From assembly GCA_017624715.1 (NCBI GenBank), contig JAGAMN010000007.1:1-39379 (forward strand): a stretch of 39,379 bases of DNA, written 5' to 3'. Origin of the DNA: Oscillospiraceae bacterium (lineage in GTDB: Bacteria; Bacillota; Clostridia; Oscillospirales; Oscillospiraceae). How positions within the stretch are numbered: position 1 is the stretch's first letter; every line of letters begins with the position of its first letter. This document shows, piece by piece, positions 14,153 to 39,379 of this stretch. Position numbers and translations under genes: made by a program. A model generated the notes under the pieces. That model ran no database searches. It saw nothing but the letters and a program-made list of their open reading frames with translations, and was not told where the DNA came from.

Positions 14153-14176
14153 TGAATGCAGAAAGGCGGTAAAGCT

Positions 14177-15376: not shown

Positions 15377-15379
15377 TAC

Positions 15380-15413
15380 AATCTCCCGGCTTTTACAGCC
15401 GGGAGATTTTTTT
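15380..15413 (+). terminator. Terminator of the typA-capA unit
   Basis: A 12-bp perfect stem (15380-15391 with 15397-15408) followed by a 7-base T run. Confidence 0.92.
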
Positions 15414-15503
15414 GTCATTGCGAGGGAGCGTTAGCGACCGTTGCAATCTCCTGAGTATTTCTCCTAACCGGGGATTGCCACGGCCTGCGGCCTCGCAATG
15501 ACA
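15413..15503. repeat. Palindromic repeat, family B
   Basis: Starts TGTCATTGCGAGG directly at the terminator T tract and ends CTCGCAATGACA. Confidence 0.85.
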
Positions 15504-15567
15504 TGACATCTATAAAGTTTAAGATTTTCTTATATTTTGTCGAAAAAGCACATCTTTACGTTTTCTT

Positions 15568-15576
15568 TGCTATAAT
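15568..15576 (+). promoter_or_regulatory. Extended -10 promoter of the first YwaF-like gene
   Basis: TGCTATAAT (15568-15576), 41 bp before the start codon; no good -35 hexamer at the expected place. Confidence 0.6.
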
Positions 15577-15617
15577 ACCAAAAGATGATCCCAAAATTAC
15601 AATAAATGGAGCGTTTT

Positions 15618-16394: not shown

Positions 16395-16399
16395 AAATA

Positions 16400-16429
16400 A
16401 AAAGGTGCGTTGCAAAACGCACCTTTTTT
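16400..16429 (+). terminator. Terminator after the first YwaF-like gene
   Basis: An 11-bp stem (16400-16410 with 16417-16427) and T run. Confidence 0.9.
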
Positions 16430-16486
16430 GTATGTGGTACCAGGGGAAGGTTTTTTGCCTTTCTTAAGAAAAGTTTAAGAAAACCC

Positions 16487-16515
16487 TTGCATTTTCTGTC
16501 GAAAGCTGTTACAAT
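16487..16515 (+). promoter_or_regulatory. Promoter of the second YwaF-like gene
   Basis: TTGCAT (16487-16492), 17-bp spacer, TACAAT (16510-16515), with TGT before the -10 box. Confidence 0.85.
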
Positions 16516-16544
16516 GACCCAAACTTATTGGAAGGGTTTGTGTC

Positions 16545-17306: not shown

Positions 17307-17316
17307 TATATAATGT

Positions 17317-17346
17317 ATAACCCCGGACGCAATTGCGTCCGGGGTT
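17317..17346 (+). terminator. Hairpin after the second YwaF-like gene
   Basis: A perfect self-complementary stem (ACCCCGGACGCAA and complement) centred at 17332. The T run is only three bases, so termination may be partial. Confidence 0.7.
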
Positions 17347-17567
17347 TATAGCTTCCCCCGGGGGGAAGCTGTCGCACAAATCGGCTTTTCGGAACCGATT
17401 TGGGTGACTGAAGAGGAATGCGGGCGGAAAACCTAAGGTTTTGAATCGGTGGAAGACTTTGAATTGTCCAACTGAGGCACAAGACTGAAAGGATTGCCGT
17501 ATTTTGTTTCTCCTCCCGTATTCCTCTTCCGACCTCGCTTTGCTCGGCCATCTTCCCCTCGGGGGAA
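17347..17567. repeat. Repeat, family C (long copy)
   Basis: About 220 bp with ends GCTTCCCCCGGGGGGAAGCT and TTCCCCTCGGGGGAAGG. The inner AGAGGAATGCGGG has a complement near CCCGTATTCCTCTTC. It fills the gap between convergent genes; no credible ORF. Confidence 0.7.
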
Positions 17568-17573
17568 GGTTTT

Positions 17574-17602
17574 ACCGCCCTCCTCGGGGTGAGGAGGGCG
17601 GT
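17574..17602 (-). terminator. Hairpin after ddh
   Basis: A 12-bp GC-rich stem (17574-17585 with 17591-17602), 7 bp after the ddh stop. It has no T tract on the minus strand, so it may protect the mRNA end or act with a factor. Confidence 0.5.
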
Positions 17603-17608
17603 TGATGT

Positions 17609-18592
17609 TTACAGCATGGTCTTCAGCAGTTCTTCTTTGCTCAGCAGGCTTAGGTCGGCCGGAGCAATGTCGAAAATGGTCTGACAGCCGGTAACGCCAC
17701 GATTGTACATCCGCATAGCTGCCCGGACACAGGCCACAAGCACACTGGCGGTAAACTGGGGATTGGAATCCAGGGTCAGCTTGTACTCAATGGTCTGGCT
17801 GCTTTCACCGTTCCAGCCGGTGTTGCCGCTGCGGATCACGCTGCCGCCGTGGGGCAGGCCGGAATGTTCGGCTTTCATCTGCTCCATGGTGATGAATTCC
17901 ACCGTAGTGTCGTAATCGGCAAAGTAATTGGGCATGGTCTTGATCGCAGTTTCAATGGCGGCCTTATCTGCATCCTCTTCTGCCACCACATAGCAGTATC
18001 GGGTATGCTTTTCCCGAGTGGTAAGCTGGGGATTTTCGCCCCGGCGCACCCGATCCATGGCATCTTCTACGGGAATGGTGTACTGCCGGCAGTCCACAAC
18101 GCCGGGGATTCGCCGCACCGCATCGGAGTGACCCTGGCTGACGCCCTTACCCCAGAAGGTGTAGTCCTTGCCCTGGGGCAAAATTGCCGAGGCATAGAGC
18201 CGGTTCACAGAGAACAGGCCCGGATCCCAGCCCAGGGAAATCAAGGCAATGTGGCCGCTTTCTTTTGCGGCGGCATCCACCGCGGCAAAATGGGCGGGGA
18301 TATTGGCGTGGGTATCAAAGCTGTCGATCACATGGAATTTCTTGGCAAATTCCGGGGTCATGGCAGGCAGATCTGTGGCGCTGCCGCCGCAGAGGATCAT
18401 CACATCGATCTTACCCTGCCAGTTATCTGCCTCCTGCAGAGGACACACCGGCACATCCGGGGTCAGTATCTTTACAGATGCCGGATCCCGGCGGGTAAAT
18501 ACCGCCTTCAGGGTCATATCCGGATTTTGGCGGATGGCGCACTCCACGCCCTTTGCCAAATTACCGTAGCCGATAATGCCAATACCTATCAT
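17609..18592 (-). CDS. ddh: meso-Diaminopimelate D-dehydrogenase
   Basis: A 327-residue NADPH-dependent enzyme that makes meso-2,6-diaminopimelate in one step from tetrahydrodipicolinate, ammonia and NADPH, for peptidoglycan and lysine. The N-terminal Rossmann motif GIGIIGYGNLAKG (3-15) begins the cofactor domain. LCGGSATDLP, VIDSFDTHANIP, LISLGWDPGLFS and WGKGVSQGHSDAVRRIPGV are the substrate-binding segments of this family. SGNTGWNGESSQTIEY is also typical. It is not DapB, despite a similar position and reaction partner. The gene is 50 nt downstream of dapA with GGAAG before the ATG, so it lies under the same lysine riboswitch. Confidence 0.95.
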   Translation of the reverse strand: MIGIGIIGYGNLAKGVECAIRQNPDMTLKAVFTRRDPASVKILTPDVPVCPLQEADNWQGKIDVMILCGGSATDLPAMTPEFAKKFHVIDSFDTHANIPAHFAAVDAAAKESGHIALISLGWDPGLFSVNRLYASAILPQGKDYTFWGKGVSQGHSDAVRRIPGVVDCRQYTIPVEDAMDRVRRGENPQLTTREKHTRYCYVVAEEDADKAAIETAIKTMPNYFADYDTTVEFITMEQMKAEHSGLPHGGSVIRSGNTGWNGESSQTIEYKLTLDSNPQFTASVLVACVRAAMRMYNRGVTGCQTIFDIAPADLSLLSKEELLKTML

Positions 18593-18642
18593 AGCTTACA
18601 CTTCCTTATATTTTGGATTTAGCTTTTCCAAAAACGAAAAAA

Positions 18643-19533
18643 TCAAACGTTGACACCTGCGTTTTTCATGCAGCTTAACAGGTGGTCGTAGTGGGCCTGC
18701 TCCATGGGTACCAGGGGCAGCCGCAGGTAATTTTCACAGAAGCCCATGGCAGCCATGGCGGCCTTCACAGGAATGGGGTTGACCTCGCTAAACAGCGCGT
18801 TGATCAGGGGCAGGTATTTTTTCTGCAGCTCCATAGCACCGGCCACGTCACCGGCAAAGTACCGGTTGCAGATCTCCACGGATTCCTTGGGCAGCACGTT
18901 GGACAGCACAGAGATCACACCCTTGCCGCCGCAGGCCAGCAGCGGCACGATCTGATCGTCATTACCGGAGTATATATCCAGCTTGTCGCCCACCAATGCG
19001 GCGGTTTCCACGATCTTACTTAGGTTGCCGTTAGCCTCTTTAATGGCCCAGATGTTGGGATGCTCCGCCAAAGCGGCATAGGTGGTCGGCTCAATGTTTA
19101 CGCCGGTACGGGAGGGGACATTGTACAGGATCACCGGCTTGGTGGAAGCGTCGGCAATGGCATTAAACATAGCCACCAGACCCTTCTGGGTGGTCTTATT
19201 ATAATAAGGTGTCACCACCAGCATGGCATCGTAGCCGATACGGCATGCAAATTGGGTCATGTCGATGGCATAGGCAGTGTCGTTGGAGCCGGTACCGGCG
19301 ATCAAGGGAACACGGCCATTTACCACTTCTGCCGCAAATTTCAGAACTTCCCGGTGCTCCTCGTCGGTAAGGGTGGAGCCTTCACCGGTGGTGCCGCAGA
19401 TAACCAGGGCGTTGATGCCTTGCCCGATCTGCCACTCGATGAGTTTTTTGAAGGCGGCATAGTCCACGCCGTCCTTGGTCAAAGGGGTCACCAATGCGGT
19501 GGCAACACCCTGGAAAATGGTTTGCTGTTTCAT
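18643..19533 (-). CDS. dapA: 4-hydroxy-tetrahydrodipicolinate synthase
   Basis: A 296-residue class I aldolase-fold enzyme that condenses pyruvate with aspartate semialdehyde, the first committed step to lysine and diaminopimelate. Visible are GVATALVTPLT (8-18), the INALVICGTTGEGSTLTDEE motif, the VTPYYNKTTQ tyrosine segment, and the Schiff-base lysine in WAIKEANGN. The start at 19533 gives the usual family length; the open frame extends upstream through the repeat to 19707 but without a site. AGCAGG lies upstream of the ATG. It heads the dapA-ddh operon behind a lysine riboswitch. Confidence 0.96.
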   Translation of the reverse strand: MKQQTIFQGVATALVTPLTKDGVDYAAFKKLIEWQIGQGINALVICGTTGEGSTLTDEEHREVLKFAAEVVNGRVPLIAGTGSNDTAYAIDMTQFACRIGYDAMLVVTPYYNKTTQKGLVAMFNAIADASTKPVILYNVPSRTGVNIEPTTYAALAEHPNIWAIKEANGNLSKIVETAALVGDKLDIYSGNDDQIVPLLACGGKGVISVLSNVLPKESVEICNRYFAGDVAGAMELQKKYLPLINALFSEVNPIPVKAAMAAMGFCENYLRLPLVPMEQAHYDHLLSCMKNAGVNV

Positions 19534-19614
19534 AAGTAATGCCTGCTTTCTGCTGAAATTTTTACTGTATGCGAAGAGACAATCATAACCACCGATTTTG
19601 TCGATGGTATGTAC

Positions 19615-19732
19615 AGGCCCCCTTGAGTAAAGGGGGCTGTCAGCCGAACAGGCTGACTGGGGGATTGTCTTTTTACAACCCCTCCGCCCAGTGTGCACAC
19701 TGGGCACCTCCCCTTACACAGGGGAGGCCTTT
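19615..19732. repeat. Repeat, family C, between riboswitch and dapA
   Basis: Ends AGGCCCCCTTGAGTAAAGGG and CCCTTACACAGGGGAGGCC; an inner TCAGCCGAACAGGCTGA hairpin, a CTGGGGGATTG box and a GCCCAGTGTGCACACTGGGC palindrome. It lies downstream of the riboswitch terminator, inside the dapA leader. Confidence 0.8.
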
Positions 19733-19736
19733 TCAC

Positions 19737-19765
19737 AAAAAAAGGACCGATGCAGATCATCGGCC
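19737..19765 (-). terminator. Riboswitch-controlled terminator before dapA
   Basis: On the minus strand a stem formed by GGCCGATG and CATCGGTCC around ATCTG is followed by seven T (plus-strand A at 19737-19743). It lies about 50 nt beyond the lysine aptamer and is the likely expression platform. Confidence 0.85.
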
Positions 19766-19814
19766 ATCAAAAGCAGCCCGGACGCAATGAGCCGGTGGTG
19801 TGCTGCGCAATGAT

Positions 19815-19973
19815 GATAGCCCTCCGCGGTTGCGACAGCCGGACAACTCTTATTTTGCCCGTCCAGGAATGGGCTTCGCCAATCCATTCCTTCGGCAGCG
19901 ACCCCTTTTTCCTGTGCCACAGCTTTGCGAAAGCCTCCCGGCCAGGGTACTGATGATACGCCGCACCTCTATC
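19815..19973 (-). ncRNA. Lysine riboswitch (L box)
   Basis: Read on the minus strand, the element opens with GATAGAGGTGCGG and closes with GGAGGGCTATC, the paired P1 ends of the lysine aptamer. Between them are GGGAGGCTTTCGCAAAGCTG, AAAGGGGTCGCTGCCGAAGG and GTTGTCCGGCTGTCGCAACC, matching the conserved junction and P4/P5 regions of the Rfam L-box family. Length (about 159 nt) is normal to slightly short. An intrinsic terminator follows. Lysine binding should stop transcription into dapA-ddh. It has its own promoter at 20000-20028. Confidence 0.93.
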
Positions 19974-19999
19974 AAAATTACAGATATTGGATTGTCTGT

Positions 20000-20028
20000 A
20001 ATTTACCATAAATCCGGGGTACTGTCAA
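20000..20028 (-). promoter_or_regulatory. Promoter of the dapA-ddh riboswitch operon
   Basis: On the minus strand TTGACA (20028-20023), 17-bp spacer, TAAATT (20005-20000) with TGG before it. An inverted repeat (ATTACAGA/TCTGTAAT, 19977-20002) just downstream would form a 5' hairpin ahead of the aptamer. Confidence 0.78.
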
Positions 20029-20031
20029 TAG

Positions 20032-20113
20032 TGTCATTGCGAGGAGCCGCAGGCGACGTGGCAATCTCCAAAGGGCTTCTCCTATCCGGGGGATTGCCAC
20101 GATCTGAATGACA
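20032..20113. repeat. Palindromic repeat, family B (degenerate copy)
   Basis: Starts TGTCATTGCGAGG; the far end has decayed to CTGAATGACA. It lies between the divergent dapA and ABC transporter promoters. Confidence 0.8.
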
Positions 20114-20117
20114 TTGG

Positions 20118-20146
20118 TTTACAAGCGGGGAAGAATATGGTATAAC
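20118..20146 (+). promoter_or_regulatory. Promoter of the ABC transporter operon
   Basis: TTTACA (20118-20123), 17-bp spacer, TATAAC (20141-20146) preceded by TGG. Confidence 0.78.
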
Positions 20147-20177
20147 AGTCGTAATAAGTCCAAATGAGGGGATAACT

Positions 20178-22523
20178 ATGAGCGAGCCTTTACTGACACT
20201 ACAAAATCTATACAAATATTATACCGGCAATCAATCCGTGGTCATGGGCTTAAACCATGTGGATCTGACCTTTTATCGGGGCGAATTTGTGGCGGTTACC
20301 GGCGAAAGCGGCAGCGGTAAGTCTACCCTGGCACAGGTGATCTGTGGTGTACTGCCCTATGAAAGCGGCGAGATGCTGCTTGCCGGAAAGCCCACCTCCC
20401 ACTATGACAGCGCCGATTGGGAGCGCTACCGCCGGGAGAAGATCAGCTACATATCGCAAAACTACGGTATCTTACCCGGCAGTACGGTGCTGACCAATGT
20501 GACCGGCGCCCTGCGGATCGCCGGTCTGCAGCAGCAAGACGCAGAGGAAAAGGCTAGACAGCTTCTGGAACTGGTGGAGCTGTGGGATCTGAAAAACCGC
20601 CGGGCGGGCAAGCTGTCCAGCGGTCAAAAGCAGCGGCTGTCCATTGCCCGGGCCCTGGCAAAACCGGCGCCCATTCTGGTGGCGGACGAGCCCACGGGCA
20701 ATTTGGACCCGGAAAACAGCGCCAAGGTCATAAAACTTCTTTCTCAGGCCGCGAAAGAGCGGCTGGTGATTCTCATTACCCACGATTTTCAGGAGGCCAA
20801 GGCCTATGCCACCCGGCGGATCCAACTCCAGGACGGCCAGGTTACCGCAGATGCACCGCTGCAACCTGCGCAGGACTGCACGGAAACCGCTGTTGCACCC
20901 CGGAAATCGGGAAATGTAAGCTTGTTTACCGCCCGGCTGCAGATGGCTGGCCGGTGGGTTTGGAGCAGTCTGGTGCTGCTGTTCTTTACGCTGACAGCCT
21001 TTGGCGTGTTTGCCTTTTTGGGTACGCTGATCGTGAATTTGGACGATACGTCTACCCGGATATACGATAAATCTGCCTTTGTAAATGGCGAAAAGACCCG
21101 AATCGTGGTGCAGCGCAGTGATTTAGGACCCATGACGGAAGCGGATTGGAACGCGATTTTGGGCGCGAAGCACGCGGTGGCTCTGGAACGGGGCGGCTAT
21201 GTGACGGATATTAACTATGCCTGGCGGCAGGATGTGGACTACAAGCTCCACCACCGGGTGGAACAGCGGGGGGATGACGATCACCGCTACTCGGTGATCC
21301 GCACCTCCGTTGAGCCTTTGCCGGAAGCCATGGACTTTGTGAAAACGAAGCCATTGTTTGCTGATGGCCGAAACTGGCTCACCGCCGGTCAAGAGCCGAA
21401 AAATATCACCGAAGTGGTGCTGGCAGGTTCTCCTGACCAAATCGGCAAGACGGTCACTGTCTATATTCAGGACCAAAAGAACTGGGCACGGGATGCCTAT
21501 CTGCGGCTGGATGTAACCGTGGTGGGTGTGACGGATTACGGCACCGGCCTTTACTTTCACGATGAGCTGAGCATGGCCATAACCGGCTTTATGATGGGCG
21601 GCGGCTGGGACGGCGGCGCTTACATTTACTTACCGGTCTACGGTGCCAGTATCCGCATGGATGCGGACATTTTCAAGGAGATCAACGGTCACAGAACAAT
21701 CTGGCAGGAAGATCTGACAGAGCGCTATATAGATGAAAACGGTGAGGAATTTATCCGCTGCTTCCTGCCGGGAGGCTTTTGCGCGCTGTCCGAGGCGCTG
21801 TATGAAAAATGTCTGCGTTACGACATCCCCGGTTCTATTCTTATGAAATTCTCCGGATATTCCGGTGGCGAAGCCGTTATTAGAAGTGTCATGGGCTACC
21901 ACGATTCCACTTTTATCGGCGCGGTGCATCTAAAACCGGAGGATTTCCACAGCATCGCTTACAAGGAAAATGCCAACCAGGTTTCTCTGACCATTACCGA
22001 TTACGCCTATACCGAGGACGTTTTGGCCCAGCTTCAGGATATGGGCTATATCGCCCTGTCGCCTTTCCGCCAGGGCTCTACAGAAAAAGATCCCGACCTG
22101 GCTGCCGAGAGAATGCAGACCCTGCTTGTCTGCCTGGGCGCGCTGATCGGTGCAGTAGTGCTGCAGATTTTGGTGCTGAAGGAGCTTTTTGGCATTCAAA
22201 TGGACAGCTATAAGCTACTGGCAGATATGGGTCTAGCCTGTCAGATCGCAAAAAGATCGGTACTGTGGCAGGTTTTGGCCTTTGCCCTCTGCGGTGAGGC
22301 CCTGGGCTTCGGCATCATTCAGCTTTGCGCGTTACTTGGCGTGGATCGGATCGAAAGCATGCTCCGGTATCTGCCCCCTGCAAACTGGCTGATTCTGCTG
22401 GGTGTACACCTGGCGGCCTCTTTGGCATCGGCCTGGGTGATTATGCGATCAGTTGGCAAAAAGGTATATCCCCAGACCGCCCAGGCCGGCGATCTGAACA
22501 TGGGAAAGGAGGTCGAGGACTGA
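20178..22523 (+). CDS. MacB-like ABC transporter, ATPase-permease fusion (first subunit)
   Basis: A 781-residue protein. The N-terminal ATPase domain (about 1-225) has Walker A GESGSGKST (42-50), Q-loop YISQNYGI, signature LSSGQKQRL (from 146), Walker B ILVADEPT (about 166-173) and the switch His in LITHDF. The permease half has one helix near 258-285, a large extracellular domain (about 290-640), and three helices near 648-668, 692-720 and 736-758. This is the MacB (type VII) topology, in which ATP use moves the outer domain rather than passing substrate through the membrane. Likely roles are export or removal of a peptide, lipid or lipoprotein; the substrate is unknown. Its stop overlaps the start of the second subunit, so they probably form a heterodimer. 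Confidence 0.9.
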   Translation: MSEPLLTLQNLYKYYTGNQSVVMGLNHVDLTFYRGEFVAVTGESGSGKSTLAQVICGVLPYESGEMLLAGKPTSHYDSADWERYRREKISYISQNYGILPGSTVLTNVTGALRIAGLQQQDAEEKARQLLELVELWDLKNRRAGKLSSGQKQRLSIARALAKPAPILVADEPTGNLDPENSAKVIKLLSQAAKERLVILITHDFQEAKAYATRRIQLQDGQVTADAPLQPAQDCTETAVAPRKSGNVSLFTARLQMAGRWVWSSLVLLFFTLTAFGVFAFLGTLIVNLDDTSTRIYDKSAFVNGEKTRIVVQRSDLGPMTEADWNAILGAKHAVALERGGYVTDINYAWRQDVDYKLHHRVEQRGDDDHRYSVIRTSVEPLPEAMDFVKTKPLFADGRNWLTAGQEPKNITEVVLAGSPDQIGKTVTVYIQDQKNWARDAYLRLDVTVVGVTDYGTGLYFHDELSMAITGFMMGGGWDGGAYIYLPVYGASIRMDADIFKEINGHRTIWQEDLTERYIDENGEEFIRCFLPGGFCALSEALYEKCLRYDIPGSILMKFSGYSGGEAVIRSVMGYHDSTFIGAVHLKPEDFHSIAYKENANQVSLTITDYAYTEDVLAQLQDMGYIALSPFRQGSTEKDPDLAAERMQTLLVCLGALIGAVVLQILVLKELFGIQMDSYKLLADMGLACQIAKRSVLWQVLAFALCGEALGFGIIQLCALLGVDRIESMLRYLPPANWLILLGVHLAASLASAWVIMRSVGKKVYPQTAQAGDLNMGKEVED

Positions 22524-28755: not shown

Positions 28756-28825
28756 GGTTACCGCTATGAATGAAACAAAAGTAAATCGCTTTGAGGAACT
28801 TGAAAAAAAGAAGGAGTTGAGGAAA

Positions 28826-31800
28826 ATGACGGCAAAGAAGTATTCTCCCTTCCACCGTATGATCGCTGCCATTTTGAGCCTGGTACTGGTATTTTCCCTG
28901 GCACCGACCTTTGTCTTTGCCGCCGAAACCCAGTCCGCCGATCGCCTGGGTATCGTCGCCGGCAGCAAGGTTGCTGACGATCCCACCAGCGACGATTGGA
29001 TTCAGTATTTCGGCCCCAACAAGATGGACACCGAATTTGCCGGTGCCGTCTGGACAGATAAGTCTGTTTTCACAGGTGAAAGCAGTCTGCTGCCCGGCGT
29101 TAAGCTGAGCAATTCCAACAATTTCCTGGTTGCGCTGTCCGCTTTGGCAGCCAACTACACCATCACCGGCCATGCCACTGTACCCACCGACACCATGCTG
29201 GTGCTGGACCTGTCCGGCTCCATGCTGATCGATGAGGAGTACGGCCCCTTCCAGAACGGCTGGATGGTTGACGGCATCGATGTATCCAACGTTGCCGCAA
29301 TGCTGGATGCCACCAACGCTGCCATCGATACTCTGATGACCCAGAATAAGAACAACCGCGTTGGCGTCATTCTTTACTCCGGCAACACCTCCACCGGCTC
29401 TGCTGCCACCGCCTCCACCGCCACCGTGATCCTGCCCCTGGGCAGATATGACGGTGTTGACGCAAACGGCAAGACCGAGTACCTGAGCCTGGAGGCCACC
29501 GCCACCACCCGGTACATCTACGAAAACCTGGGAACCAACCGCAGACCCAACTGGCAGCCCACCGACCAGCAGGTGACCTACTACACCGGCAATGTAAATG
29601 TCAAGGTTGCCACCGGTCTGAAGATCGAAAAAGGTGACGAAGTCGAGGATGCTTCCAAGCGGGTCAACGGCGGTACTTACATCCAGAACGGCCTTTACAA
29701 GGCTTTGCAGGAGTTCCTGAAGGTCACCGACACCGTGGTACCTGAGGGCAATGCCCAGGCCGGCGCACAGCGTATGCCCGTTCTGGTTCTGATGAGCGAC
29801 GGTGCACCCACCATTGCTACCACCGACTATACCAATGTTGGCGATTCTAATGTAGGCTCCGGCAACGGCACCAACGACCGGATCACCATGCTGACCCAGC
29901 TGACTGCCGCCTATGTCAGAGGCGCGATCATTAACCATTATAAAGAAAGCTCCGGCGACAAGCAGGATATGCTGTTCCTGACCTTGGGTCTGGGCACCAG
30001 CTCCAATGCCGCCGCTACCGATACGCTGTATCCCGCCGGCAGCGACACCGATCTGAGCGGCTACTGGGATACCTACCTGGCAGCAACCGCCGGCAATGAT
30101 ATCACCATTACCATCGACGACATAGACCTGACCGTGGAGCGCAATGCTCTGGTCAGCGAAATGAACTATGTGGATAAGTACTTCTACGCAGCGGATGCTG
30201 AAGGCATGATCCACTCCTTTGAAGAGATTGTCAGCGAGATCCAGCTGAAGGCCGATACCTATAACACCCTGGTCTCCGGCGGCGATGCGGATATTTCCGG
30301 CTATATCACCTTTGAAGATGAGCTGGGCGAGTTGATGGAAGTCTATAAGGTGCAGGGCATCCTGATGAGCGACGGCAACGGCGGTGTGGTTCTGTACACC
30401 GGCAAGGGCATTGCTCAGGGTATGACAACCGGCACTCTGGGTACTGTGGACGGCGCTACCGACCGTGGCAATGAGCTGGTCCGCACGGTTAAGGAGCGGA
30501 TCCCCGGTCTGACTACTTCCACCGCCCAGCAGCTGATCAACAATGCATACAACGATCAGCAGCTCTACTACGAAAACGACTCCAACTGGAGCAACTACAT
30601 TGGCTGGTATGCAGATGCCGACGGCAATTACGTTGGCTTCTGGGATAAGGATTCCGGCTACGAAAATGCTCCCGCCGGTGCTGTTTATGCCAACAAGTCC
30701 TACGGCTATCTGGGCGTTGAGGGCGACAGCGATATGATGCACGTGGTGGTGCAGGTCCGTACCAACCTGAAGACCAAGCACCAGACTGTGTATTTCAAGA
30801 TCCCTGCAGCGCTGATTCCTACTGTTACTTACAATGTGACCCTGGATAAGGATGACACCACCAAGGTCGAATCCCTGACCCGTGAAGATGCGCTGCCTAT
30901 GCAGCTGGTCTTCGAGGTTGGCCTGCGCTCCGATCTGAATGCTGTCAATCTGGAAGCCAAGATCGCTGAACACGTAGCAAATGGCGGCCATGTTCATAAG
31001 AATGCCGACGGCACCTACTCCTTCTACACCAACTCCTGGGCCATCGGCAATGACCTCAACGGCAACGGCATTCCTGATCCCAACGAAGTGGAATCCGCCG
31101 TTGTGGCAGAATCCCACTTCAACCCGGCTCTGGATAACGGCCGCTTCTACTTCACCGAGGATACCCTGGTGCTGGATGCCAACGGCAATGTTGTCACCGG
31201 CAACACCAAGCCTGCCGGCACCACCTATCAGCACACCCGGGCCATCTACAACGCAACCGAAAAGACCTACATCTATATGCCCATGTCCGCAGAGACCGTG
31301 GCCAAGGCAAAGCGCAACGCCGACGGCCAGTGGTACATTCCTGCCGGTTCTCCCTACCTGGAGTGGAGCCGCTTCCGCTTCAACAAGGGCGAGAACAAAA
31401 CCGGCACTTTGGGCTATACCTTCGTGCCCGCCGCATTCTCTAACAATATTTCGGGCATTGATATCTATGCCTTCCTGGGCAACAACGGCACATTGAAGCT
31501 GGCCCCTGCCACCGGTATTACTCTGACCAAGAAGGTAGACGGCGTCATCGCTGATGCGGAAAGCTACACCTTCACCGTCAGCGTTCCTGCCGGTGTGACC
31601 GCCAATCCCATCGTCACCGATGCCAATGGCGATCCTATCCCCGGCATCACCACCACCGCTTTCGCAAACGGCAGCTTTGACCTGACCATCCCTGCTGATG
31701 TCACCGCTTACATTACCGGTATTCCTGCCGGTACCAATGTGACCATCACCGAGAAGCTCCTGGGTGACTACCATGTATCCGGAATCACCGTGAACGGTAT

Positions 31801-34800
31801 TAACCAGGCTGCCGGTTCTTCTGTCCAGGTTACCGTTCCTGCTGTTGTTGATGCTGTTAAGATCAACAAGGTGGAATTCACGAACATCGCCAACGGCTAT
31901 GGCGATCTGACCATTCTAAAGGACGTTACCCACAATTTGGGAACTGACCCCGATGTACTGGCAACCAAGGTGTTCACCTTCCGGGTGACCCTGTCCGGTG
32001 ACAGAGTCCATACAGGCGACACCTTCGCAACCAGCAATAACGGACCTGTGCAGGTTGCAGCCGACGGCACTTTGACCTTCGCTGACGGCACGCCGATTAC
32101 ACTGCGTAACGAAGAGTCCATTACGATTATCGGTATCCCTGAGGGCACTGCCTATACTGTGGTGGAGACAGATATTCCCAGCGGCTTTGCCTTTGACCAT
32201 GCCACTGCTTCCACTGGCATCATCGAAAGAGATACAGCCGCGGTTGCATCCTTCGTAAACCGCTACCCCGACACATACACTTCTGTAAATGTTCCTCTGG
32301 ACCTGACCGTCCGGAAACTTCTGGAAGGCACTCCCGCCAACGAGGAGATCTTCCGCTTCGCCCTGCAGCAGATGCTGCCGGACAGCACCTATCCGGATCA
32401 GAAGGTCTATGAGATCAGCTCTCTGGCTGCGGATAAGACCGTCAACGATAAGTCCATCGTTCTGCAGTATGCCAATGTGGGAACTTACTTCTACCGCATT
32501 GTGGAGAAGATCCCCGATGAAAAGACTCCCGGCATGACCTACTCTGCTACCCACGCTCTGTTTGCTGTGGTCGTTACCGATACAGATATGGACGGCGTGC
32601 TGGAAGTGGATGTTCGGGCAGAAGCCAACATCACCGCCAGCAGCACCTATGCAGATCCTGCCGACAAGGAAACCATCACCGGTGTTATTGTGGAAGCCAG
32701 CTTCACCAATATCTATCAGGTCCACAGCACCAGCGTCTCCGTCGGTGTCCACAAGGATCTGACCAACAATACCGGCGTTGAGATCTCCCTGACCAACTTC
32801 CAGTTCGGTCTTTACAATGTAGATGCCAGCGGCAATGCCATCGGCGCTCCCGTCCAGGTAGTCACTTCCAGTGCCTTGGGCGATGCAACCTTCAACATCA
32901 TCGTCGCTGAGGATAAGGACCTGACCTACATCATTAAGGAGATCATTCCGAATCCTGCAAGACCCGGTATGACCTACGATGCCAGAGAATATGTTCTTTC
33001 CATCGAGGTTACCGCCGCTATGGACGGTCAGCTGAGCGCAGTTTCCTCTGTGAAGCTGAAAGGCAGCAATACCGAAACGGCTGCGGTGTTCCATAACACC
33101 TATGCTTTGACCCCCGCATCCACCGCCGTTCCTTACTCCAAGACCCTGATTGGGCGGGCTCCTCTGGAAGGCGAGACCTTTATGTTCCAGGTGGTCAGAA
33201 CGGACGATACCTATCAGCCGCTGACCGGCGTGGGTGCATACAGCGAAGTCTATACCGTACCCGTAGGCAGTTACCTGTTCCAAGTGGGCCAGGACCTGCT
33301 GAACAAGGTAGGAACCTACCACTTTAAAATCACAGAGCTGCCCGGCACTTCCGGCGGTCTGCACTATGACAGCACGGAGTACCACATCGCCATCACCGTG
33401 ACCGATAACGGCAACGGCGCGTTGGTTGCTTCTGCTCCTGTGATCCATAAGGTTGGCCAGGCAGAAAGCGTCGCCAGCGCAGATTTTGTTAACACTTACT
33501 CTGTCACCGGCTCCGGTTCTGTGGTCATCGACGGTAAGAAGACCCTCTCCGGCAGAGACATCATCGCCGGTGAGTTTACCTTCGGCCTGTACACCGATCC
33601 CAATGGCGCTCCCATCGAGATCGTCACCAACCGTGCCGACGGCAGCTTCGTGTTCAGCGCTCTGAACTTCACCGAGGCCCATCTGGATACCGGCAACGGC
33701 ACCAAGGTTTACACCTACTATGTCAAGGAGATCCTGCCCACCGGCGCTGCCCAGGGCGTGACCTACGACACCACCGTGCACACCGTAACCGTCACTGTCA
33801 GCCATGATAACTATGGCGCGCTGGTAGTTACGCCTTCCGGTAATCATACCGGCAGCATTGTCATCAACAATGCCTACAATGCTCAGGGCGTGGATGTAAA
33901 AGTGCACGGCATGAAGCTCCTGGTTGGCGACTGGTCTGCAGTGCAGAACAAGACCTTCTCCTTCCAGCTTTACGAAGCCGATGAAAACTACCGCGTTACC
34001 AACACCACTCCCATTCAGGTGGTCAGCAACAGCGCAACCGGCGAATTCAGCTTCAACCTGTCCTTCGCCGACGGCCAGGAAGGCAACCACTACTACGTCC
34101 TCCGTGAGGATGTTTCCGCAGCGGCAGGCGGCATCAACTACGATGCTACCATCTACCGTGTGCTGGTCAATGTCACCGACAACGGCACCGGCAAGCTCCA
34201 CGCGCTGGTTTCCATGTACCATCCCGGCACCGGCAATGTTGCCAATGACACTACTCTGGGCGCACCTGTGGCAGTGTTCAGCAATGGCTACTCTGTGGAG
34301 CCTGTGCAGGTGATCCTGGAAGGCAAGAAGATCCTGACCGGCCGTGACCTGGCAGCAGGGGAGTTCACCTTCACCGTACTGGAGGGTACCAAAGCGGTTG
34401 CCACCGGCACCAACGCAGCCGACGGCACCATTACCTTCACCCCCATCACCTATGCAAAGCCCGGTGTACACACCTATATCATTCAGGAAGATGCCGGCAC
34501 TCTGGGCGGCGTGACTTATGATGACACCGTCTTTGCCGTCACTGTCACTGTTACCGATAACGGCCAGGGCAAGCTGGTTACTTCCGTGAACTACGGCACC
34601 CCCGTAGAGTTTGAGAATATCTACACCGCAGAGGCCACCGACGATGTTATCTTCAGCGGTGACAAGAACCTGACCGGCCGTGAGCTCCGGGAGGGCGAGT
34701 TTGAATTCGTTTTGAAGAACGAGTCCGGCGCAGCTGTGGAAACCGTCAAGAACGCAGCAGGCGGTAAGATCACCTTCTCCGCCATCAGCTTTGACAAGGT

Positions 34801-37800
34801 TGGCGTTTATAAGTACACCATCAGCGAGGTGGCCGGCACTTTGGGCGGCGTGACCTATGACGACAGCGTGTTTAATGTCACCGTCACCGTAACCGATAAC
34901 GGCCAGGGCAAGCTGATCGCCGATGTGCAGTACAGCGCTCCCGTGGTCTTCGGCAATGCCTACAAGGCTGCTCCTTCCGATGATGTGGTCTTCGGCGGCA
35001 GCAAGGTCCTGAACGGCCGCGACCTGGCAGCAGGTGAGTTTGAATTCGTTCTGAAGAACGAGTCCGGCGCAACCATCGAAACTGTCAAGAACGCTGCCGA
35101 CGGCAAGTTTGCCTTCTCCGGCATCCGCTACGACACCATCGGTACCTATAAGTACACCATCAGCGAGGTGGTTGGCACCCTGGGCGGCGTGACCTACGAT
35201 GATGCAGTTTATACCGTCATTGTCACCGTGGTTGACTGGGGTACCGGCAAGCTGGCTACTGAGGTGGTCTACGAGATCGCCGGTGGCGCGGTTGCACCCG
35301 AGGAAGTGGTGTTCACCAACAGCTATTCCGCTGATAATACCGACGAAGTTGCCTTCAGCGGCAACAAGGTCCTCACCGGCCGCGATCTGGTGGAAGGCGA
35401 GTTCCAGTTCGTCCTGAAGGACGAAACCGGCGCAACCGTCGAAACTGTGAAGAATACCGCAGGCGGCAAGATCACCTTCTCCAGCATCAGCTTCACCAAG
35501 CCCGGCACTTACAAGTACACCATCAGCGAGGTGGTAGGCACCCTGGGCGGCGTGACCTATGACGACAGCGTGTTCACCGTGACTGTCACCGTCACCGATC
35601 CCGGCGACGGCAAGCTGGTTGCCGATGTGCAGTACAGCGCACCGGTGGTCTTCAACAACACCTATGCAGCCGCTCCTTCTGATGAAGTTACCTTCGGCGG
35701 CAGCAAGGACCTGACCGGCCGTGACCTGGCTGCAGGCGAGTTCCAGTTTGTTCTGAAGGATGCCTCCGGCAAGCCCATCGGCAATCCCGTTGCCAATGAT
35801 GCAAACGGCAACTTCCGCTTCCCCACCATCGGTTATGACAAGACCGGCGTCTACAAGTACACCATCAGCGAGGTGGCAGGCAACCTGGGCGGCGTGACCT
35901 ACGACAGCTCCGTGTTTACTGTAACTGTCACCGTCACCGATCCCGGCGATGGCAAGCTGGTTGCCGATGTGCAGTACAGCGCTCCCGTCATCTTCCGCAA
36001 TACTTATGTTGCCGAAAAGACCGATGCGGTCGTCTTCGGTGGCGACAAGAACCTGACCGGCCGTGATCTGGCCGCAGGCGAGTTCGAGTTCGTACTGAAG
36101 AACGCGTCCGGCGCAACTGTGGAGACTGTCAAGAACGCAGCGGGTGGCAAGTTCACCTTCGCAGGCATCACCTTTGATGCTGTGGGTACTTACAAGTACA
36201 CCATCAGCGAGGTGGTTGGCACTCTGGGTGGCGTGACCTACGACGACAGCGTGTTCACTGTGACTGTCACCGTCACCGATAACGGCAACGGCAAGCTGGT
36301 TGCCGATGTGCAGTACAGCTCTCCCGTGGTGTTCAACAACAGCTACAAGGCTGACAAGACCAATGAAGTGATCTTCACCGGCGACAAGAACCTGACCGGC
36401 CGCGATCTGGCTGCAGGGGAGTTCGAGTTCGTACTGAAGAACGAATCCGGCGCAACCATCGAGACTGTCAAGAACGCAGCGGGTGGCAAGTTCACCTTCG
36501 CAGGCATCACCTTCGATGCTGTGGGTACTTACAAGTACACCATCAGCGAGGTGGCCGGCAACCTGGGCGGCGTAACCTACGACAGCACCGAGTTTACCGT
36601 CACGGTCACCGTCACCGACCCCGGCAATGGCAAGCTGGTTGCCGATGTGCAGTACAGCGCCCCCGTGGTGTTTAACAACACCTACAAGGCTGACAAGACC
36701 AATGAAGTGATCTTCACCGGCGATAAGAACCTGACCGGCCGTGACCTGGCCGCAGGGGAGTTCGAGTTCGTACTGAAGAACGCGTCCGGCGCAACCATCG
36801 AGACTGTCAAGAACGCAGCCGACGGCAAGATCACCTTTGCAGGCATCACCTTCGATGCTGTGGGTACTTACAAGTACACCATCAGCGAAGCAGCCGGTAC
36901 TCTGGGCGGCGTGACCTACGACAGCACCGAGTTTACCGTTACGGTCACCGTCACCGACCCCGGCAACGGCAAGCTGATTGCCGATGTGCAGTACAGCGCT
37001 CCTGTGGTCTTCACCAACAAGTATGTTGCGGAAAAGACCGACGAAGTTATCTTCACCGGCGACAAGAACCTGACCGGCCGTGATCTGGCCGACGGCGAAT
37101 TCTCCTTCGTGCTGAAGGATGCCACCGGCGCAGTTGTGGAGCTTGTGAAGAATGATGCAAAGGGCAAGATCACCTTCTCCGGTATCGCATTTGAGCGGGC
37201 GGGTGTTCACACCTACACCATCAGCGAAGTCAGAGGCGCTCTGGGCGGCGTGACTTACGATGATGCTGTGTTCACCGTCACCGTTACTGTCACCGATCCC
37301 GGCGACGGCAAGCTGGTTGCATCTGTTGCATACAGCGCCCCCGTCCTCTTCAAGAACACCTACAAGGCAGAACTGGTAGACTTCACCTTCGAAGCCGACA
37401 AGCATCTGGTGGATATCTCCGGCGGCGGCCGGGTGAACCTGGCAGTTCCTGCTGACCTGTACGAATTCCTGGTCAAGGATACCCTGAACAATGTGCTGGC
37501 AACGGTCAAGGCTGATGTAAACGGCAAGATCCACTTTGCCCTGCCTTACACCGCAATCGGCACCGGCCACACCTTCTTCCTCAGCGAAAAGGCCGGCACT
37601 GACGAGGGAATCACTTACGATCTGTCTGTCTACAAGGTCACCTACGACCTGGTGGACAATGGCGACGGCACGATTACTCCCGAGAACATCACCATCATCC
37701 GCATCAAGGATGCCAAGGGCAACGATGTGACCGAAAGTGCCACCGCAATGGTCTTCGAGAATACCTACCGTGCCCCGGACGCAACCCTGGATCTGTTCGG

Positions 37801-38605
37801 TCAGAAGCACTTGAACGGCGGCCGCGACATGGTCGCAGGCGAGTTCTCCTTCGTGCTGAAGGATGAGAGCGGTGCTGAGGTTGAGGTCGTTACCAACGAC
37901 GCAAACGGCGTGTTCTTCTTCAAGACTCTGACCTTCGACACTGTGGGTACTTACAAGTTCACCATCAGCGAAGTCAAGGGTACTGACGAGAAGGTCACCT
38001 ACGACACAACCGTCTATGAGATCACCGTCACCGTTACCTACGAAAACGGCGTCATGAAGGCCGTGGCTACCGTCAACGGCGAGAATGTGAAGGAATATGG
38101 CTTCACCAACATCTTCACCCCCGATGATGTATCTGTCAGCATCGATGTCCAGAAGATCCTGGAGAACAAGACGGATAAGGTTATAGGTCTGGACGGCTTC
38201 GCATTCCAGCTCAAGGGCCAGGGTAACGACACCGACAAGACCATTGTCAGCGACGAAAAGGGTATTGCACAGTTCGCCCTGACCTTCACCCTGGAGGACA
38301 TTGGCAAGACCTTCACCTACAACCTTAGCGAGGTTGCCGGAGATGTTCCCCACATGACTTATGACGAAACCGTTTACGAGATCGTCATCACTGTCACCCA
38401 GGACAGCACCACCGGTGCTCTGGAGCTGACTGTGACCCGGGACGGCCAGGCTGTTACCGACAGCGCAACCTTCACCAATGTCTTCTTCGAAGAGCCTCCC
38501 AAGACTTCGGATGCTTTCCAGCCCGCACTGGCGGCTATGATGGGCATCGCTGCCATCGGCATGTTGGCAGTGCTGGTCATCGGCAAGAAGAAGTTTGCTG
38601 AGTAA
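28826..38605 (+). CDS. Giant cell-wall-anchored vWA/isopeptide-domain adhesin
   Basis: A 3,259-residue surface protein if it starts at 28826 (AAGGAG 10 nt upstream); an ATG at 28766 would add 20 charged residues. The signal peptide has a Lys/Arg n-region, the hydrophobic core IAAILSLVLVFSLAPTFVFA and a cut near AAE. A vWA domain (about 115-455) has the MIDAS motif D128-L-S-G-S and VLVLMSDGAP. Residues 455-890 are unassigned and include a Ca-loop-like DLNGNGIPDPNE near 743. Then come two Cna/DUF5979-like domains and about 17 FctA/Spy0128-type domains. Each has a Lys near its start (GxKxLxGR), a Glu in YxISEV and an Asn in the final VFxNxY, the triad that forms intramolecular isopeptide bonds in streptococcal pilins. 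The end is PPKTSD (3224-3229), a helix and KKKFAE. Likely an adhesin or pilus-like stalk; ligand unknown. Confidence 0.9.
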   Translation: MTAKKYSPFHRMIAAILSLVLVFSLAPTFVFAAETQSADRLGIVAGSKVADDPTSDDWIQYFGPNKMDTEFAGAVWTDKSVFTGESSLLPGVKLSNSNNFLVALSALAANYTITGHATVPTDTMLVLDLSGSMLIDEEYGPFQNGWMVDGIDVSNVAAMLDATNAAIDTLMTQNKNNRVGVILYSGNTSTGSAATASTATVILPLGRYDGVDANGKTEYLSLEATATTRYIYENLGTNRRPNWQPTDQQVTYYTGNVNVKVATGLKIEKGDEVEDASKRVNGGTYIQNGLYKALQEFLKVTDTVVPEGNAQAGAQRMPVLVLMSDGAPTIATTDYTNVGDSNVGSGNGTNDRITMLTQLTAAYVRGAIINHYKESSGDKQDMLFLTLGLGTSSNAAATDTLYPAGSDTDLSGYWDTYLAATAGNDITITIDDIDLTVERNALVSEMNYVDKYFYAADAEGMIHSFEEIVSEIQLKADTYNTLVSGGDADISGYITFEDELGELMEVYKVQGILMSDGNGGVVLYTGKGIAQGMTTGTLGTVDGATDRGNELVRTVKERIPGLTTSTAQQLINNAYNDQQLYYENDSNWSNYIGWYADADGNYVGFWDKDSGYENAPAGAVYANKSYGYLGVEGDSDMMHVVVQVRTNLKTKHQTVYFKIPAALIPTVTYNVTLDKDDTTKVESLTREDALPMQLVFEVGLRSDLNAVNLEAKIAEHVANGGHVHKNADGTYSFYTNSWAIGNDLNGNGIPDPNEVESAVVAESHFNPALDNGRFYFTEDTLVLDANGNVVTGNTKPAGTTYQHTRAIYNATEKTYIYMPMSAETVAKAKRNADGQWYIPAGSPYLEWSRFRFNKGENKTGTLGYTFVPAAFSNNISGIDIYAFLGNNGTLKLAPATGITLTKKVDGVIADAESYTFTVSVPAGVTANPIVTDANGDPIPGITTTAFANGSFDLTIPADVTAYITGIPAGTNVTITEKLLGDYHVSGITVNGINQAAGSSVQVTVPAVVDAVKINKVEFTNIANGYGDLTILKDVTHNLGTDPDVLATKVFTFRVTLSGDRVHTGDTFATSNNGPVQVAADGTLTFADGTPITLRNEESITIIGIPEGTAYTVVETDIPSGFAFDHATASTGIIERDTAAVASFVNRYPDTYTSVNVPLDLTVRKLLEGTPANEEIFRFALQQMLPDSTYPDQKVYEISSLAADKTVNDKSIVLQYANVGTYFYRIVEKIPDEKTPGMTYSATHALFAVVVTDTDMDGVLEVDVRAEANITASSTYADPADKETITGVIVEASFTNIYQVHSTSVSVGVHKDLTNNTGVEISLTNFQFGLYNVDASGNAIGAPVQVVTSSALGDATFNIIVAEDKDLTYIIKEIIPNPARPGMTYDAREYVLSIEVTAAMDGQLSAVSSVKLKGSNTETAAVFHNTYALTPASTAVPYSKTLIGRAPLEGETFMFQVVRTDDTYQPLTGVGAYSEVYTVPVGSYLFQVGQDLLNKVGTYHFKITELPGTSGGLHYDSTEYHIAITVTDNGNGALVASAPVIHKVGQAESVASADFVNTYSVTGSGSVVIDGKKTLSGRDIIAGEFTFGLYTDPNGAPIEIVTNRADGSFVFSALNFTEAHLDTGNGTKVYTYYVKEILPTGAAQGVTYDTTVHTVTVTVSHDNYGALVVTPSGNHTGSIVINNAYNAQGVDVKVHGMKLLVGDWSAVQNKTFSFQLYEADENYRVTNTTPIQVVSNSATGEFSFNLSFADGQEGNHYYVLREDVSAAAGGINYDATIYRVLVNVTDNGTGKLHALVSMYHPGTGNVANDTTLGAPVAVFSNGYSVEPVQVILEGKKILTGRDLAAGEFTFTVLEGTKAVATGTNAADGTITFTPITYAKPGVHTYIIQEDAGTLGGVTYDDTVFAVTVTVTDNGQGKLVTSVNYGTPVEFENIYTAEATDDVIFSGDKNLTGRELREGEFEFVLKNESGAAVETVKNAAGGKITFSAISFDKVGVYKYTISEVAGTLGGVTYDDSVFNVTVTVTDNGQGKLIADVQYSAPVVFGNAYKAAPSDDVVFGGSKVLNGRDLAAGEFEFVLKNESGATIETVKNAADGKFAFSGIRYDTIGTYKYTISEVVGTLGGVTYDDAVYTVIVTVVDWGTGKLATEVVYEIAGGAVAPEEVVFTNSYSADNTDEVAFSGNKVLTGRDLVEGEFQFVLKDETGATVETVKNTAGGKITFSSISFTKPGTYKYTISEVVGTLGGVTYDDSVFTVTVTVTDPGDGKLVADVQYSAPVVFNNTYAAAPSDEVTFGGSKDLTGRDLAAGEFQFVLKDASGKPIGNPVANDANGNFRFPTIGYDKTGVYKYTISEVAGNLGGVTYDSSVFTVTVTVTDPGDGKLVADVQYSAPVIFRNTYVAEKTDAVVFGGDKNLTGRDLAAGEFEFVLKNASGATVETVKNAAGGKFTFAGITFDAVGTYKYTISEVVGTLGGVTYDDSVFTVTVTVTDNGNGKLVADVQYSSPVVFNNSYKADKTNEVIFTGDKNLTGRDLAAGEFEFVLKNESGATIETVKNAAGGKFTFAGITFDAVGTYKYTISEVAGNLGGVTYDSTEFTVTVTVTDPGNGKLVADVQYSAPVVFNNTYKADKTNEVIFTGDKNLTGRDLAAGEFEFVLKNASGATIETVKNAADGKITFAGITFDAVGTYKYTISEAAGTLGGVTYDSTEFTVTVTVTDPGNGKLIADVQYSAPVVFTNKYVAEKTDEVIFTGDKNLTGRDLADGEFSFVLKDATGAVVELVKNDAKGKITFSGIAFERAGVHTYTISEVRGALGGVTYDDAVFTVTVTVTDPGDGKLVASVAYSAPVLFKNTYKAELVDFTFEADKHLVDISGGGRVNLAVPADLYEFLVKDTLNNVLATVKADVNGKIHFALPYTAIGTGHTFFLSEKAGTDEGITYDLSVYKVTYDLVDNGDGTITPENITIIRIKDAKGNDVTESATAMVFENTYRAPDATLDLFGQKHLNGGRDMVAGEFSFVLKDESGAEVEVVTNDANGVFFFKTLTFDTVGTYKFTISEVKGTDEKVTYDTTVYEITVTVTYENGVMKAVATVNGENVKEYGFTNIFTPDDVSVSIDVQKILENKTDKVIGLDGFAFQLKGQGNDTDKTIVSDEKGIAQFALTFTLEDIGKTFTYNLSEVAGDVPHMTYDETVYEIVITVTQDSTTGALELTVTRDGQAVTDSATFTNVFFEEPPKTSDAFQPALAAMMGIAAIGMLAVLVIGKKKFAE
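34304..37372 (+). repeat. Nine tandem 333-366-bp repeats in the adhesin gene
   Basis: Units start at 34304, 34637, 34973, 35339, 35675, 36017, 36356, 36695 and 37034 and encode 111-122 residues each (protein 1827-2849). Each has the pattern GxKxLTGRDLAAGEF, KNAAGGKxTF, GTYKYTISEV, GTLGGVTYD, VTVTVTDxGxGKLVADVQYS and VVFNNxY. Units 6-8 are the most alike, including long identical DNA stretches. Flanking domains are diverged relatives. Confidence 0.92.
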
Positions 38606-38616
38606 TTCCCAATAAA

Positions 38617-38648
38617 AAAGGGCCATCGGTGCAAACCGATGGCCCTTT
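38617..38648 (+). terminator. Terminator of the TetR-adhesin operon
   Basis: A perfect 14-bp stem (38617-38630 with 38635-38648) with a GCAA loop; the 3' T tract is short. Confidence 0.85.
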
Positions 38649-38973: not shown

Positions 38974-39006
38974 TAAAAAAACCGCCGCACCGAATGGTGC
39001 GGCGGT
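38974..39006 (-). terminator. Terminator of the GAPDH gene
   Basis: An 11-bp GC-rich stem (38981-38991 with 38996-39006) followed on the minus strand by a T run (A at 38975-38980). Confidence 0.92.
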
Positions 39007-39031
39007 AAATATGTTCTTCAAGCTCTGTGAA

Positions 39032-39379
39032 TTACAGCAGAGTGGAGAAGTGCTTGATGGTGCGGACCATCTGAGAAACGTAGGAGTTCTCGTTGTCGTA
39101 CCAGGACACGACCTGAACCTGGGTCTTGCCGTCGGGCAGAGCGCAGACCATGGTCTGGGTAGCGTCGAACAGAGAACCGAAACGCATGCCGATGATGTCG
39201 GAAGAAACGATCTCATCCTCGTTGTAGCCGTAGGACTCGGTAGCAGCAGCCTTCATGGCAGCGTTGATGTCAGCAACGGTAACAGACTTGGAGCAGACAG
39301 CGTTCAGGATGGTGGTGGAACCGGTGGGGGTGGGGATTCTCTGAGCAGCGCCGATCAGCTTGCCGTTCAGCTCGGGGAT
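39032..39379 (-). CDS. gap: Glyceraldehyde-3-phosphate dehydrogenase, 3' end
   Basis: The last 115 codons of a type I GAPDH; the 5' part lies beyond the window and the frame is open to the last base. The enzyme oxidises glyceraldehyde-3-phosphate to 1,3-bisphosphoglycerate with NAD in glycolysis. Visible are [20 protein letters not shown], the [17 protein letters not shown] segment, [20 protein letters not shown] and the C-terminal helix. The WYDNE motif is the family hallmark; the [10 protein letters not shown] continuation is the variant seen in Bacteroides and some gut Clostridia rather than Bacillus WGYS. The catalytic Cys lies outside the window. Confidence 0.95.

Follow-up and report, generated by a model that had tools for sequence, protein, structure and literature searches.

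A probable single-chain, sortase-anchored fibrillar adhesin of a gut clostridium with a pilus-tip-type head and a long isopeptide-type stalk

The window analysed here is a stretch of 39,379 nucleotides from an Oscillospiraceae bacterium (GenBank assembly GCA_017624715.1, contig JAGAMN010000007.1, positions 1 to 39,379, forward strand), and our subject is one gene in it, at 28826-38605 on the forward strand, which stays open for 3259 residues, with no stop across 9.8 kb. We read its product, with a probability of about 0.77, as a single-chain, sortase-anchored fibrillar adhesin, which would join a head of the pilus-tip type to an isopeptide-locked stalk whose length differs between species. The domains, the critical residues, the tail, the homology, the differences in unit number and the purifying selection on the gene are present in the sequence itself. 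An earlier, sequence-only reading had described a secreted protein of about 3.26 kilo-residues with a vWA head, including its metal-ion-dependent adhesion site (MIDAS), and a long run of FctA domains; this observation is confirmed, the FctA domains numbering 17. The parts of the gene and its immediate surroundings are as follows; dN/dS denotes the ratio of nonsynonymous to synonymous substitution rates, and L094 is the locus of the nearest relative fetched.

28826-38605, forward: gene for a 3259-residue surface protein (open frame, ribosome site, dN/dS 0.17-0.21 against L094)
28826-28924, forward: signal peptide, residues 1 to about 33, with a basic N-terminus and a hydrophobic stretch
29060-29062, forward: Lys79 in W-T-D-K-S-V-F, candidate isopeptide lysine of a putative split domain around the vWA domain, conserved in 72/72 aligned sequences
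29192-30259, forward: vWA domain, residues 123 to about 478 (VWA_2 and RrgA matches, invariant MIDAS; domain end estimated)
30260-31516, forward: post-vWA half of the head, about residues 479-897, conserved, without a known family
30317-30319, forward: candidate catalytic Asp498, within the post-vWA half
31031-31033, forward: candidate partner Asn736, within the post-vWA half
31517-31891, forward: first DUF7601 domain, about residues 898-1022, with K902, E976 and N1020 (limits from the triad position)
31901-32266, forward: second DUF7601 domain, residues 1026-1147, with K1032, E1114 and N1145 (best-scoring DUF7601 stretch in the Pfam scan)
32306-34627, forward: FctA units D01-D06, pairing one-to-one with L094 units 1-6 at 67-82% identity
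34655-37366, forward: FctA units D07-D14, all of one multiplied type, with 59-69% identity of each to the single L094 unit 7
37376-38482, forward: FctA units D15-D17, divergent, without a clear counterpart in L094
38495-38605, forward: sortase-type tail, with PPKTS (38495-38509), a hydrophobic stretch, KKKFAE and the stop
38620-38645, forward: perfect 11-bp hairpin GGGCCATCGGT-GCAA-ACCGATGGCCC, then TTTC, read directly in the sequence

Pfam places 17 stretches of FctA (PF12892) in the stalk, with a whole-protein score of 996.9 bits at a cut-off of 22.1, and NCBIfam likewise recognises TIGR03786, its model of the streptococcal pilin isopeptide linkage domain, 17 times. Together these units occupy residues 1161-3219; in D15 the Pfam match spans the second half only (37520-37768). 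The Pfam scan of the protein also reports two DUF7601 stretches, only the second of which it places. Upon a six-frame search of the draft genome itself, 17 FctA matches exceeded the curated cut-off, every one in this gene, while none of 14 control genomes gave a match. A two-domain profile of the units matches the Spy0128 pilin (3B2M) over positions 5-242 of 247, and the lysine, glutamate and asparagine of the expected triad align with those of chain 5TTD, a “pilin isopeptide linkage domain protein”. FctA is named among the isopeptide families in a recent survey, and DUF7601 is named there as a predicted one (PMC12617251).

The triad had been described as kept in nearly all units, which proved too cautious: Lys, Glu and Asn align in 17/17. 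Relatives of the protein were gathered by a one-pattern scan of a species-genome collection, which gave 242 stretches with 193 relatives, and the best 80 loci were retained. All 81 rows of open reading frames (ORFs) from these loci, incomplete genes included, contain 612 FctA domains, in which the residues present are Lys in 574/578, Glu in 608/609 and Asn in 589/591 cases (99.3-99.8%). These are the best-kept columns of all, the next well-filled ones being two phenylalanines (96.7% and 94.8%). In the first DUF7601 domain, the triad is kept in 72/72, 72/72 and 72/72 sequences, and in the second in 71/72, 71/72 and 66/66. Since every one of the 17 FctA and two DUF7601 domains retains its Lys, Glu and Asn, 19 isopeptide bonds are predicted for the window protein.

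The head carries a vWA domain of a recognizable kind. Of 17 heads compared, 16, the window's included, match VWA_2 at an E value of 1 or less, the best at 3e-11. A profile of the 17 heads, searched against solved structures, retrieved RrgA (2ww8) at 1.3e-7, 3tvy and 3tw0 at 4e-7 (both of which we take to be GBS104), GBS104 (3txa) at 2e-6, the membrane protein 4rck at 9e-5 and, more weakly, Mfa5 (6tnj) at 0.0075. Judged by these matches, pilus-tip proteins are the best solved relatives of the head. The MIDAS is complete (D128, S130, S132, T284 and D325) and all five residues are invariant across 72 aligned sequences, which bears out the vWA/MIDAS assignment made at the outset. A Pfam scan of the protein at E values up to 0.1 gave no thioester domain (TED), the domain sought as the mark of a thioester, isopeptide and ester-bond (TIE) adhesin.

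The vWA domain of GBS104 is inserted into an Ig-like domain that is closed by a Lys188-Asn692 bond with Asp597, as tabulated in the isopeptide survey (PMC12617251, Table 1), and Mfa5 and RrgA are reported to follow this plan of a vWA domain within an Ig-like domain (PMC7835359). The window head offers the same order of residues: K79 precedes the vWA domain, and D498 and N736, the latter in FYTN, come after it. The three residues occur jointly in 107 of the 112 heads in which all three positions are aligned, a set that leaves aside five proteins with missing positions and holds some duplicates, as contigs entered by two routes. Among the exceptions, L154 has Asp in place of Asn, L085 has neither Lys nor Asp, and L082 has lost both Lys and Asn (to Arg and Ser), a joint loss that suits a bond between the two. 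D498 and N736 lie 238 residues apart, as compared with 95 in GBS104, and therefore an insertion must be assumed in this segment. N771, N886 and N887 are invariant as well and are possible alternative partners of K79, and neither the head nor its post-vWA half gave a Pfam hit to PF21426 (GBS104-like_Ig), the family of the GBS104 domain. We put the odds at about even that K79, D498 and N736 form a twentieth isopeptide bond that closes around the vWA domain as in GBS104.

The post-vWA half, about 420 residues, is conserved along with the vWA domain in the aligned relatives. The window copy has no Pfam match, a profile search of the Protein Data Bank returned nothing better than E 2.9, and in 37 members scattered Pfam families appear in one or two members each, at best at 1.5e-4. 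This stretch probably corresponds to an “unassigned 435-residue region” noted earlier; that part of the description stands, and what went unnamed were the two DUF7601 domains that follow it. One locus (L067, 7185-9959) encodes the head alone: its 924-residue chain lacks FctA but has a sortase-type tail, which shows that the head can occur stalkless with its own anchor signal.

The joining of this head to an FctA shaft is common among the relatives. Of the 81 rows, we counted 66 complete ORFs with a head; 13 that run off the end of their stretch were excluded, as was L148, whose split head takes up two rows. In 65 of the 66 the head precedes 3-24 FctA domains (median 8 over the 66), and the remaining one, L102, has 0. 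At least ten FctA domains are present in 13 and at least 16 in five, and Pfam by itself counts 24 in L105, 18 in L146 and 7 in L094. The L105 protein (9893-22447) is the larger relative, with 4184 residues and 24 units; hence the 17 units of the window are a high number but no record. The suspicion that the architecture is scarcely represented thus does not hold. A search for a vWA domain with ten or more FctA domains, which had been suggested as a check, finds it in these 13 complete relatives; the many characterised proteins of the same build that would have spoken against the idea did not turn up, as relatives are numerous and none was found characterised.

With the genome of the window counted in each case, the head was found in 35/295 genomes of the order, in 16/60 close relatives (E up to 0.001, partial matches included) and in 7/398 genomes sampled across the phylum (E up to 1e-10). 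FctA occurs in 15/398 genomes of the phylum sample, where, with at most ten candidates scored per genome, the window frame alone has at least ten FctA domains among the matches listed. The relatives come from metagenome assemblies whose titles read Clostridia, Oscillospiraceae, Erysipelotrichaceae or Bacillota, and many of these titles mention the caecum, colon or rectum of goat, sheep, roe deer, water deer, yak or buffalo. Judged from these sequences, fusion of the head to an FctA shaft is the rule among the 80 best-matching loci. More distant heads frequently come without FctA (L081, L084, L086, L174, L181). In L174 (G317:C110, 833-19999, reverse strand), a divergent head from the same genus stands on a frame of at least 6388 residues without FctA; a 5000-residue piece of it matches DUF11, DUF7927, DUF7601, DUF7619 and GBS104-like_Ig, and the chain closes with a PKTGD tail. 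A giant shaft of the DUF11 type under such a head suggests that heads and shafts can be exchanged. In two loci the frame is broken, between head and FctA array in L071 and within the head in L148, as a result of sequencing error or decay.

Comparison with L094, recorded as Oscillospiraceae, indicates how the stalk may change. The L094 head is 82% identical to that of the window and bears seven FctA units. The DNA of the two is colinear from window position 27913, inside a TetR gene, to 34962, and again at 38471-38648; the end of gapA (38978-39379) lies near the gene in L094 too, 95.5% identical and inverted. While the first six units pair off one-to-one, all other pairs within these six share 22-41% identity, and unit 7 of L094 is roughly equally similar to each of D07-D14. 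Either one unit type was multiplied in the lineage of the window, or copies of it were lost in that of L094. D07-D14 are up to 91% identical among themselves, D11-D13 being 83-91% identical to one another, and the DNA forms a tandem array at 34493-37368 (period 339, 8.4 copies, 76% matches). These counts, 17 and 7, are compared across species-level genomes. Against L094, the dN/dS ratio reaches 0.17 in the head and 0.21 in D01-D06, from which it follows that purifying selection acts on the gene.

Each of the 66 complete relatives has a hydrophobic stretch and a basic tail at its C-terminus, and 48 of them contain xPxTG, most frequently as SPKTG (10). The corresponding motif is PPKTS in the window and PPKTA in L094. 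Sortase SrtB of Clostridioides difficile is reported to recognise (S/P)PXTG (PMC5118464). Four sortase matches occur in the draft genome: three lie on contigs C46 and C33 beside pilin genes and one on contig C19, and there is none on the contig of the window. We take the sortases on C46 and C33 to be class C and the one on C19 to be class-B-like. A sortase-like ORF is present in 4 of the 80 loci, directly upstream of the gene in two (L125 and L154), and among the sortases of the window's own genome the C19 enzyme is the nearest to each of the four. Because of the tails of the relatives and the affinity of these four sortases, anchoring by a class-B-like sortase is likely. A search of the genome with the window tail gave only weak matches, to the end of a 491-residue frame on contig C11 (8389-8502, L168; 42% identity over 39 residues, E 0.008) and to contig C40 (E 0.07). 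The C11 frame piece has no Pfam match; it possibly represents another protein that is sorted alike.

Several observations weigh against a sortase-anchored, isopeptide-locked adhesin. The VWA_2 match of the window copy scores 20.6 bits, under the cut-off of 27. The heads of L081 and L180 keep the lysine without the candidate asparagine, a loss that does not suit a Lys-Asn bond in the head. PPKTS, like PPKTA in L094, deviates from (S/P)PXTG at the last position. No sortase-like ORF was seen in 76 of the 80 loci, of which only 46 extend for 3 kb on both sides of the gene. Finally, the profile behind the 612 FctA domains was made from the window's own units and is biased towards look-alikes; this bias by itself, however, should not raise the triad above the core positions. 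That the triad serves folding alone, in a stalk without cross-links, is very unlikely to us, as the three residues are better kept than any other well-filled column and line up with those of structurally solved pilin isopeptide domains. Least credible of all is that the long array is an artefact of assembly or a pseudogene. The genome is a draft of 69 contigs and 2.27 Mb, 86% complete, which lends the idea some weight. Yet the longest exact repeat within the gene is merely 53 bases, which makes a misassembly of distinct units unlikely, and the uninterrupted frame, the purifying selection and the comparable arrays in many other assemblies all speak against it. Extra identical units may have been collapsed in the assembly.

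A different role for the protein would be that of a tip or minor subunit of a sortase-polymerised pilus, with a shaft supplied by pilin operons elsewhere in the genome. Two such operons exist, on C46 (L075) and C33 (L076), with sortases beside GramPos_pilin backbones, and the head does resemble the vWA proteins of pilus tips. These operons, however, have large first subunits of their own: SpaA arrays of 1294 (C46) and 1055 (C33) residues, the latter with a thioester-domain match under the cut-off. Sorting motifs are LPMTG and LPKTG in the first subunits and LPSTG and LPQTG in the backbones, unlike PPKTS. Moreover, the chain bears its own long shaft, its contig is devoid of sortase matches, and most loci of the relatives, many of them with short flanks, show no sortase-like ORF either. 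Genes of the RrgA/GBS104 type are expected beside a backbone pilin and its sortase, and neither turned up beside the gene among the 20 other window ORFs scanned. We consider a polymerised pilus subunit improbable and rejected it as the leading explanation, given the different sorting motifs of the pilin operons and the location of the gene away from them. The earlier suggestion that tip and shaft are united in one chain fits these findings, as seen in the vWA head, the long FctA shaft and the sortase-type tail of the same protein; the contig has no second FctA or SpaA gene. To call the product a “pilus-like fibre” is fair as a likeness; of polymerisation there is no sign.

As a single-chain fibrillar adhesin, the protein would function as follows, with bond formation, anchoring, adhesion and reach inferred from its sequence. 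The signal peptide would export the chain, upon which each of the 17 FctA and two DUF7601 domains would fold and form its own Lys-Asn isopeptide bond, assisted by Glu, to yield a stalk that should resist proteases and pulling. A sortase, most likely the class-B-like enzyme on C19, would cleave PPKT/S and attach the chain to peptidoglycan. With a length of 4-5 nm per domain, the vWA head, perhaps enclosed like that of pilus-tip adhesins by a split domain with an isopeptide closure, would be carried about 90 nm from the cell, where it would bind a ligand through its metal site. The reach would differ between species by gain or loss of one mid-stalk unit type.

What the head might bind is a narrower matter, compatible with the adhesin as a whole. 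It may attach to plant fibre, mucin glycans or other bacteria and so fix the cell to hindgut particles or biofilm, as the plant-eating hosts of many relatives and the family-less post-vWA half suggest; solved vWA tip proteins, in contrast, are presumed to bind host-cell ligands (PMC7835359), and we regard a target other than host protein as tentative, somewhat below an even chance. Marginally better, and only just short of even, are the prospects of a broader proposal, according to which these proteins represent a separate family of one-chain “pili”, so far undescribed, in gut clostridia. Such a family would possess a clasped tip head (K79-N736, with D498) on a locked shaft of 3-24 units, would evolve its reach by multiplication of one mid-shaft unit and would attain a pilus-like reach without pilus assembly, beside the sortase-pilin operons that are likewise present in the window's genome.

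The start of the gene was placed at 28826 because of the AAGGAG ribosome site at 28811-28816, which nine bases separate from the ATG, and the ensuing signal peptide, whose best 16-residue hydropathy is 2.47; the mechanical ORF begins at 28718, 36 codons ahead. The hairpin downstream is the probable transcription end, and a scan requiring five T did not report it. On the opposite strand, a frame at 31916-38626 (2236 residues) is rejected as a gene: 131 of 200 synonymous-codon shuffles gave an antisense open run that equalled or exceeded the observed 2229 codons, so that composition accounts for its length. In the repeat region, NCBIfam also matches ArgT, RNA polymerase alpha and QnrE, all far under their cut-offs, and we attribute these hits to chance.

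Upstream of the gene lie a TetR-type regulator, an FGGY kinase and a zinc alcohol dehydrogenase, and downstream, on the opposite strand, gapA at the end of the contig, which is reached 0.8 kb past the gene. A TetR-like ORF immediately upstream is found in 12 of 75 assessable relatives, which is too rare for a fixed partner. None of 20 other window ORFs scanned belongs to a pilin or sortase family. Elsewhere in the window, two adjoining genes (15606-17306) match the TMEM164 family (PF14808). A frame of 717 residues (754-2907) with short tandem repeats at 1201-1326 has no Pfam match and is overlapped by two long frames on the opposite strand.

A vWA head of the pilus-tip type is thus widely used outside pilus operons by uncultured gut clostridia, on single-chain and probably covalently locked stalks. 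If the reading as a single-chain adhesin is correct, the number of FctA units would be a simple gene-encoded ruler for the reach of a commensal, and unit turnover could be traced between close species. The conserved half of the head without a family, in turn, is a defined target for structural and ligand work.

Fibrillar adhesins are defined by great length, an adhesion region, a rod-like repetitive region, a surface anchor and target binding (PMC9210967), and the sequence provides 3259 residues, a vWA head, 17 FctA domains and a sortase-type tail. In the open-access literature, we found no paper on a vWA head with a long FctA stalk by title or the start of the abstract. Still, every part and the general kind of protein are known; published examples exist of isopeptide stalks, of vWA heads and of giant single-chain adhesins, and no new principle is involved. 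The label “little described” has to be set against published long isopeptide chains (PMC10619420, PMC12617251) and VWA-SpaA adhesins (PMC8286594). Isopeptide domains are reported to occur often in tandem in long anchored monomers, and as the database of that survey ends at 1280 residues, proteins of the length considered here lie outside it (PMC12617251).

RrgA, GBS104 and Mfa5 (2ww8, 3txa, 6tnj) share the vWA domain with MIDAS and the candidate order of Lys, vWA, Asp and Asn, but are tip subunits of pili or fimbriae, whereas the window protein has the shaft in the same chain. The Spy0128/FctA pilin of Streptococcus pyogenes (3b2m) shares FctA with Lys, Glu and Asn; it is a two-domain subunit polymerised by sortase, as opposed to 17 domains in one chain. 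Mobiluncus, the source of the nearest published giant, belongs to a distant phylum. The TIE adhesin of M. mulieris has 7651 residues and 21 more isopeptide domains than that of M. curtisii, and like the window protein it is a single chain with many isopeptide domains, one of which was solved and is homologous to domain 2 of Spy0128; it differs by a thioester head region, ester-bond domains mixed into the stalk and an LPxTG tail (PMC10619420). Adhesins that combine a Collagen_bind, VWA or TED head with a SpaA stalk, described for nearly all Firmicutes genera, share the N-terminal adhesive domain, tandem stalk, sortase-type tail and single chain, while the window protein stands apart through its stalk of 17 FctA units and the post-vWA half without a named family (PMC8286594). 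Periscope proteins, finally, are likewise monomeric anchored rods with variable repeat numbers, yet their repeats are described as highly identical and varying within populations, whereas the units of the window are at most 91% identical and their numbers differ between species-level genomes (PMC9704523).

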